NCBI GenBank assembly: GCA_937969495.1
Contig: CALBVY010000045.1
Span: forward strand, 1-64,000
Source of the DNA: an uncultured Verrucomicrobiales bacterium
GTDB taxonomy: Bacteria > Verrucomicrobiota > Verrucomicrobiia > Verrucomicrobiales > Akkermansiaceae
DNA length: 64,000 bases
Direction: 5' to 3'
Below are positions 30,935 to 33,595 of this stretch, one piece after another. Numbering within the stretch: position 1 is the first letter of the stretch; the number at the start of each line of letters is the position of its first letter. Made by a program: the position numbers and the translations under genes. Under the pieces are notes generated by a model, which did no database searches, was not told the origin of the DNA, and saw only the letters and a list, made by a program, of their open reading frames with translations.

Positions 30935-31978
30935 ATGCACCTGACATTGGATGATCTTGTCTCACTCACCGGGGGACGGCTTGTTCGTTCTCAGAATGCA
31001 GAAAATGAGGGGCTCTTTTCCGGAGTAGCATCATTGGATGAGGCTGGAGTAGATGAGGTTTCTTTTTTAGGGAACGAAAAGTATTACCAAGATTTTCTGA
31101 GCACTACTGCTGGAGTTGTTCTTATCCCTCCCGGGGTGCCAGAGCAGCCCGCCTCAGCTGCATTAATCGAGGTGGAGAATCCCTCACTAGCATTTGGAGC
31201 AGTGGTGAAAAAGCTGATGACCAGTCACCGTAAATTTGAATCAGGTATTCAAGCTGGCGCCCATGTAGCAGAGGGTGTGCAGCTAGATGCTGCCAAAGTT
31301 TCTGTGAAAACAGGAGCCGTCATTGAGGCTGGAGCAAGTATAGGTGATGGCACAGAGATTGGTGCCGGAGTAGTGGTATGTGCAGATGCTGTAATCGGTG
31401 AGAACTGCATTCTGTATGCCAATTCCACGGTGCGTGAACGGTGTGTGTTAGGAAATAATGTGGTACTTCAGCCTGGTGCAGTGATCGGCTCAGATGGCTA
31501 TGGTTACACGCTGGTGGATGGTCGCCATGAGACCATTGATCAAGTAGGAATTGTTGTCTTAGAAGATGACGTAGAAATAGGAGCAAACTCTACCATCGAT
31601 CGTGCCCGATTTGGAAAAACAGTGATCGGGGAGGGGACCAAAGTTGATAACCTCGTCCAGATTGCGCACAATGTGCGCATTGGTAAGCACTGCCTCGTGG
31701 TTGCTCAGTGTGGGCTAGCTGGTAGCACACAGGTTGGAGATTACGTTACATTTGCAGCTCAATCAGGAACAGCTGGGCATGTCAAAGTGCACGATCAGGC
31801 TATTCTAACGGCCCGTGCCGTGGCTTTTAAAGACTTAGAAGGTGATGCTGTCTATATGGGGATGCCCGCGCGTCCCATCAAGGAGGAGCAGAAAAAAATG
31901 GCTCTCCAGTCACGCTTACCAAAGCTTGTGGCACAAGTGAAAGAGCTTCAGCGCAGGCTAGATGCCCTTGGGGAATAG
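30935..31978 (+). CDS. lpxD: UDP-3-O-acylglucosamine N-acyltransferase
   Basis: Left-handed beta-helix hexapeptides, [47 protein letters not shown]. Confidence 0.95.
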
Positions 31979-32274: not shown

Positions 32275-32493
32275 ATGAACATTGAAATTGAATATTGCGA
32301 GCAGTGAAACTACCGTCCTGAGGCTGACCGTGTGTCGGCTGAGATTGAACAAGCGACTGGGCAAAAAGTAACCCTCATCGGTGGAGGAGGGGGTATTTTT
32401 GAAATCCGCAAAGATGGAAAATTACTGTGGAAAAAAGAACGAGGTGGCGCATTTCCTGCAGATGGTGAGGGTGCGGCTTTGTTTGAAGGTTAG
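32275..32493 (+). CDS. SelW/Rdx-like selenoprotein with CxxU motif (TGA at 32305-32307 read as Sec)
   Basis: ATG at 32275: MNIEIEYCEQ[TGA=U]NYRPEADRVSAEIEQATGQKVTLIGGGGGIFEIRKDGKLLWKKERGGAFPADGEGAALFEG*. Matches the Rdx/SelW layout CxxU-x-YRP...GGxFEIxxDG...FP; SECIS-like hairpin follows the TGA. Absent from the supplied ORF track because of the internal TGA. Confidence 0.88.
32322..32340 (+). promoter_or_regulatory. Bacterial SECIS-like hairpin
   Basis: GGCTGAC-CGTGT-GTCGGCT: 7-bp stem (two G-U pairs), 5-nt loop containing GU, loop starting 21 nt after the TGA. Confidence 0.7.
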
Positions 32494-32569: not shown

Positions 32570-33595
32570 TTAAGGCACTGGCACACGTGATAAAATACGG
32601 TCGATCAATGTGTCAGTGGTAATATCTTCTGCTTCTGCTTCGTAACTGGGGAGAATACGGTGGCGTAGGACATCGTGTGCGAGATCTTTGATGTCTTGCG
32701 GAGTTACGAAGGAGCGGCTAGCCATGAAGGCTCTTGCGCGAGCGGCGAGAGCGAGGTTGATGGTAGCGCGGGGTGATGCTCCGGCGCGGATGAGGTTCTT
32801 TAATCCTGTGTCTACCTTAGCAGGGAAGCGTGTGGTGTGGACAAGTTCGACGATGTATTTTCTTACGGCGGGATCAATGTAGACGGAGTTCACTAGTTCG
32901 ATACTACGTGCGATGGTGGCTGCATCTACCACTGGAGATGTTTCGTAGATGGGTGCGGAGGTGGCCATGCGATCGAGAATAGTTAGCTCATCTTCGCGGC
33001 TGGGGTAAGAGACAGTGACCTTGAGGAGAAAGCGGTCTAGCTGCGCCTCTGGTAGCTGGTAGGTTCCTTCTTGATCGATTGGGTTTTGGGTAGCCAGGAC
33101 GAGGAAAGGGTCTGGTAGTTTATAAGTGGTGTCACCGATGGTGACTTGACGCTCTTGCATGGCTTCCAGTAGGGCGGACTGCACCTTGGCTGGAGCGCGG
33201 TTAATTTCATCAGCTAAGACGATGTTGCTAAAGATGGGACCTAATTTTGCGGAGAATGTAGATTCACGTGGGTTATAAATCATCGTGCCGATCAGGTCTG
33301 AGGGCAGAAGATCGGGAGTAAACTGGATCCGAGAAAAATCTGACTGCAAACAGCCTGAAAGAGCTTTGATAGCAAGTGTTTTAGCGAGACCTGGGACGCC
33401 TTCTAACAAGATGTGACTTTTGCACAGAAGTCCCACGATGAGCCTATCCACAAGATCCTCTTGTCCTACAAGGACTTTGGCCATTTCTTCTTTGACGAAT
33501 GGGATCCACTGGCAAGATGAGGCGATGTTATCTGAAAGTTCTTCGGTATTCATTGAGTGATACAGGTATTGTCTAGAGGAACGGAGTTCGCGCAA
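32570..33595 (-). CDS. MoxR-family AAA ATPase
   Basis: LLEGVPGLAKTLAIKAL, IQFTPDLLPSDLIGTMIYNP, LADEINRAPAKVQSALLEAMQERQVTIG, VLATQNPIDQEGTYQLPEAQLDRF. Confidence 0.95.
   Translation of the reverse strand: MRELRSSRQYLYHSMNTEELSDNIASSCQWIPFVKEEMAKVLVGQEDLVDRLIVGLLCKSHILLEGVPGLAKTLAIKALSGCLQSDFSRIQFTPDLLPSDLIGTMIYNPRESTFSAKLGPIFSNIVLADEINRAPAKVQSALLEAMQERQVTIGDTTYKLPDPFLVLATQNPIDQEGTYQLPEAQLDRFLLKVTVSYPSREDELTILDRMATSAPIYETSPVVDAATIARSIELVNSVYIDPAVRKYIVELVHTTRFPAKVDTGLKNLIRAGASPRATINLALAARARAFMASRSFVTPQDIKDLAHDVLRHRILPSYEAEAEDITTDTLIDRILSRVPVP

Follow-up and report, generated by a model that had tools for sequence, protein, structure and literature searches.

A SelW-like selenoprotein gene with a predicted UGA-encoded selenocysteine in an Akkermansiaceae bacterium

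Results

An overlooked SelW-like gene with an in-frame TGA

Positions 32275-32493 of the 64,000-nucleotide stretch of DNA analysed here (the window) are read as a functional gene for a SelW-like selenoprotein (SELENOW/Rdx, PF10262), a reading to which, judging from sequence comparisons, we assign a probability of about 0.96. In this Akkermansiaceae-type bacterium, the internal TGA almost certainly specifies selenocysteine. The assignment is built from the gene itself, the conservation of the TGA, the covariation of a SECIS hairpin, the selenocysteine machinery of the same genome, and the co-occurrence of such genes with selA.

The reading frame starts with an ATG at 32275, contains a single internal TGA, and ends with a TAG at 32491-32493. 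Readthrough would give a product of 72 aa (MNIEIEYCEQUNYRPEADRVSAEIEQATGQKVTLIGGGGGIFEIRKDGKLLWKKERGGAFPADGEGAALFEG). An earlier note on this DNA had given the coordinates, translation, and TGA position exactly; its peptide was right in sequence but ended at DGEG, where the full protein goes on with AALFEG. The note had also stated that the gene was missed by the ORF track, and table 11 ORF calling indeed lists no ORF of at least 60 aa in this frame, so that the present assignment corrects an Akkermansiaceae gene overlooked by standard gene calling. A point against the assignment is that no clear Shine-Dalgarno sequence was seen on inspection of the sequence upstream of the gene. The coordinates of the gene, its recoding elements, and its neighbors are collected in Table 1.

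Table 1 Features of the SelW-like locus within the window
Feature	Position	Strand	Basis
selW-like gene, Rdx-family selenoprotein, CxxU (C8-E-Q-U11)	32275-32493	+	Pfam PF10262, TIGR02174, homologs
In-frame TGA, predicted Sec codon at the second redox Cys position	32305-32307	+	TGA conservation, selA/B/C/D
Bacterial SECIS hairpin (stem halves 32322-32328 and 32334-32340; loop CGUGU, 32329-32333)	32322-32340	+	MFE, covariation, RNAalifold, bSECIS constraints
lpxD-like gene, neighbor	30935-31978	+	Name read off the sequence, not from a profile search
MoxR-type AAA ATPase gene, neighbor	32570-33595	-	Name read off the sequence, not from a profile search

The gene is flanked by the lpxD-like gene and the MoxR-type AAA ATPase gene. 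The latter, which lies downstream, stays close by in ten loci of close relatives, some of which are the same contig represented twice, and no functional link to the SelW-like gene follows from this conservation. When the window was scanned for TGA-crossing frames outside the ORFs, 11 candidates were obtained, among which only 32275-32493 was tested against family profiles; none of the other ten looked real when judged by eye. An Rfam search of the whole window at gathering thresholds gave a tRNA as the sole match.

The encoded protein belongs to a described and abundant family

The Rdx family and the CxxU motif named in the note were both borne out by profile searches. The protein matches Pfam Rdx (PF10262) with an E value of 2.7e-16 and 59.9 bits against a cut-off of 22.6, the domain spanning the TGA, which falls at the second Cys of CxxC. 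It also passes the cut-off of NCBIfam TIGR02174 "CXXU_selWTH" (47.6 bits against 34.2). The best NCBIfam match is to NF041051 (SelT/SelW/SelH family (seleno)protein) at 74.7 bits, below the equivalog cut-off of 88, which places the window gene outside that curated set. Its closest named relatives are found in Akkermansiaceae and other Verrucomicrobiales assemblies, and homologs reach up to 84% identity.

SelW-like CxxU proteins are among the commonest known bacterial selenoproteins in marine data and ranked first in the surveys of the Sargasso Sea (PMC1088965) and the GOS dataset (PMC2398784). Their function was called unclear in the Sargasso paper (PMC1088965), and a review describes bacterial SELENOW-like proteins as CxxU with one Sec (PMC13188914). 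The window gene shares with these the PF10262 domain, the CxxU motif, a lone Sec occupying the second redox position, and a bacterial SECIS right behind the UGA; it differs only by sequence divergence and by its host from the Akkermansiaceae (Verrucomicrobiota), a lineage not singled out in PMC1088965, PMC2398784, or PMC13188914. Because the CxxU SelW-like family is already known, the gene is an unannotated new member of a described, abundant bacterial selenoprotein family and not a new kind. The Rdx structures 2fa8 (Atu0228), 2p0g ("Selenoprotein W-related protein"), and 2obk are homologous over approximately residues 3-64 but are distant relatives, and Atu0228 has CxxC in the alignment where the window protein has CxxU.

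The genome encodes the complete selenocysteine machinery

The note had implied that the host possesses selenocysteine machinery, and a genome search for it was set as a test beforehand. The assembly (2.47 Mb in 98 contigs, 96% complete) contains selA (500.8 bits in the profile search), selB (308.4 bits, with an open frame of 641 aa), selD (376.9 bits), and tRNA-Sec (selC) with the anticodon UCA (57.6 bits), on which ARAGORN concurs. The selD gene of this genome (L018:1387-2550, minus strand; contig C22) carries an in-frame TGA of its own, in the context SCAG-U-ASKL, at what we take to be the position of the catalytic Cys/Sec of SelD, and the genome would therefore encode at least two predicted selenoproteins. 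It also holds a second Rdx-family gene (L023, C55:3962-4183, minus strand; 98.9 bits) with no in-frame TGA, so that Sec-type and stop-free Rdx genes occur side by side in one genome.

The TGA is conserved and co-occurs with selA

Alignment of homologs at the TGA column, a check proposed in the note, placed a TGA at the redox position in every homolog above approximately 42% identity and Cys in distant homologs only. The TGA is common to homologs from Akkermansiaceae, Gammaproteobacteria, SAR324, Neomarinimicrobiota, and Rhodospirillales. TGC or TGT occupies the column in the distant homologs L022, L095, and L097-L099. Cys codons are present in distant Demequina-type sequences and in a Cys-type Rdx of genome G012. 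Downstream of the TGA, past the hairpin, the sequence is under purifying selection, with a dN/dS of approximately 0.09-0.12 in the three pairs with unsaturated dS; the value for L052 was discarded because a one-codon deletion makes it invalid.

A TGA-type Rdx gene is present in 46 of 145 genomes of the same family, and 44 of these 46 contain selA; the two without it are incomplete assemblies (G095, 83%; G106, 70%). Among the 99 family genomes with no TGA-type Rdx, selA is absent from 78 (odds ratio 82, p 1.2e-18), a p value that overstates the case because related genomes are non-independent samples, although the pattern is clear nonetheless. Across the family, selA was found in 65 of the 145 genomes, and a large part of the Akkermansiaceae would, on this gene content, use selenocysteine; the remainder shows no selA. 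Two genomes in which no selA was found (G100 and G140) gave tRNA-Sec model matches barely above the cut-off (49.3 and 51.2 bits), which may be spurious or may be relics of a Sec system.

A covarying SECIS hairpin follows the TGA

The hairpin GGCTGAC-CGTGT-GTCGGCT, which the note had pointed out as having the bacterial SECIS layout, folds into a 7-bp stem closed by a loop of 5 nt, which is separated from the TGA by 21 nt, with a local MFE of -8.5 kcal/mol. The bSECIS model specifies a loop of 3-9 nt, a stem of 4-16 bp, a G among the first two loop nucleotides, a spacing of 16-37 nt, and an MFE of -7.5 kcal/mol or lower (PMC13188914); the window hairpin, with G as the second loop nucleotide, lies within all of these bounds. 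When codons were shuffled synonymously, a stem as long or longer arose in 13.5% of cases and an MFE as low or lower in 4.4%, and the hairpin taken from the single sequence is mildly unusual and not convincing alone.

It is covariation across relatives that makes the hairpin convincing. Among 46 distinct homologs, both sides have changed at six of the seven pairs, with compensatory swaps such as GAC..GTC to GAG..CTC, and 93.8% of cells are paired. The covariation score is 0.431 versus 0.164 when shuffled (0 of 500 reach it), and slid partners give at most 0.086. RNAalifold recovered the same hairpin from the alignment, with six pairs. The stem is interrupted in a few close relatives (L051, L058, and L035), and the few Cys homologs have stems of only 2-4 pairs at the same spacing.

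Alternative explanations and proposed mechanism

The frame could in principle be a pseudogene, a CxxC Rdx gene in which a nonsense mutation turned the Cys codon into TGA: TGC and TGT each lie one substitution from TGA, and the stop-free paralog L023 is present in the same genome. Against this, the same TGA recurs in dozens of genomes from several phyla, dN/dS is low after it, the hairpin covaries, and TGA-type Rdx is coupled to selA. Retention of the TGA across phyla together with purifying selection downstream in effect rejects a pseudogene, which we consider very improbable. We give even less weight to genome-wide reassignment of TGA (e.g., to Trp) or general readthrough. The frame would be open with TGA read as any residue, but neither the neighboring genes nor selA or selB contain an in-frame TGA, and here the TGA sits exactly on the Cys column, accompanied by a SECIS and the full Sec machinery; with no internal TGA in the ordinary genes of the genome, this explanation is in effect dismissed. 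An assembly or sequencing error is equally implausible: the draft assembly is split into 98 contigs, but independent assemblies share both the TGA and the hairpin, as does the named strain Roseibacillus persicicus KCTC 12988 (L080), and these independent occurrences effectively dispose of it.

If the gene is a SelW-like selenoprotein gene, the ribosome would meet the UGA at codon 11, and SelB charged with Sec-tRNA(UCA) would bind the hairpin 21 nt downstream of the UGA, with the proposed result that selenocysteine is inserted and termination does not occur. The product would be a small thioredoxin-fold protein in which Cys8 and Sec11 form the CxxU redox center, probably acting as a selenenyl-sulfide thiol oxidoreductase on thiol partners. 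We infer Sec insertion in this host, the fold, the redox reaction, and the partners, the redox role by analogy with the family, for whose bacterial SelW-like members the role is itself a prediction.

UxxU relatives within the same order

SelW-like genes in which both redox Cys positions are TGA (UxxU) were also observed (L026, L028, L042, L102, L103, and L105-L119). They are found in 17 related genomes, 3 from Akkermansiaceae (G021, G087, and G103) and 14 from another family of the same order, and the rest of the Rdx protein is intact. The three Akkermansiaceae genomes all contain selA, as do 13 of the 14 from the other family, the exception being 53% complete. The starts of the two UGA codons are 9 nt apart, and the loop of a single hairpin follows at approximately 21 nt from the second TGA and approximately 30 nt from the first. 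Both spacings fall inside the published range, and the two UGAs apparently share one SECIS. On a poorly resolved tree of 73 columns, the UxxU label would need approximately three changes.

For these relatives, and not for the window gene, it is likely that one order contains two forms of the SelW redox pair, CxxU and UxxU. The latter would be a recurrent bacterial double-selenocysteine SelW capable of forming a diselenide. In the literature consulted, UxxU SelW is known only from eukaryotes, with UxxU SELENOW in amphioxus and Ostreococcus (PMC7539508), which the bacterial genes would parallel; a literature search that was thin on subscription journals found no report of a bacterial UxxU SelW. 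If this reading is true, recoding of two close UGAs by one hairpin becomes testable, and CxxU and UxxU proteins in close relatives would offer a natural comparison for the effect of a second selenocysteine. The pattern hits L101, L104, L122, L124-L126, and L129 were set aside as chance matches in sequences that are not Rdx genes.
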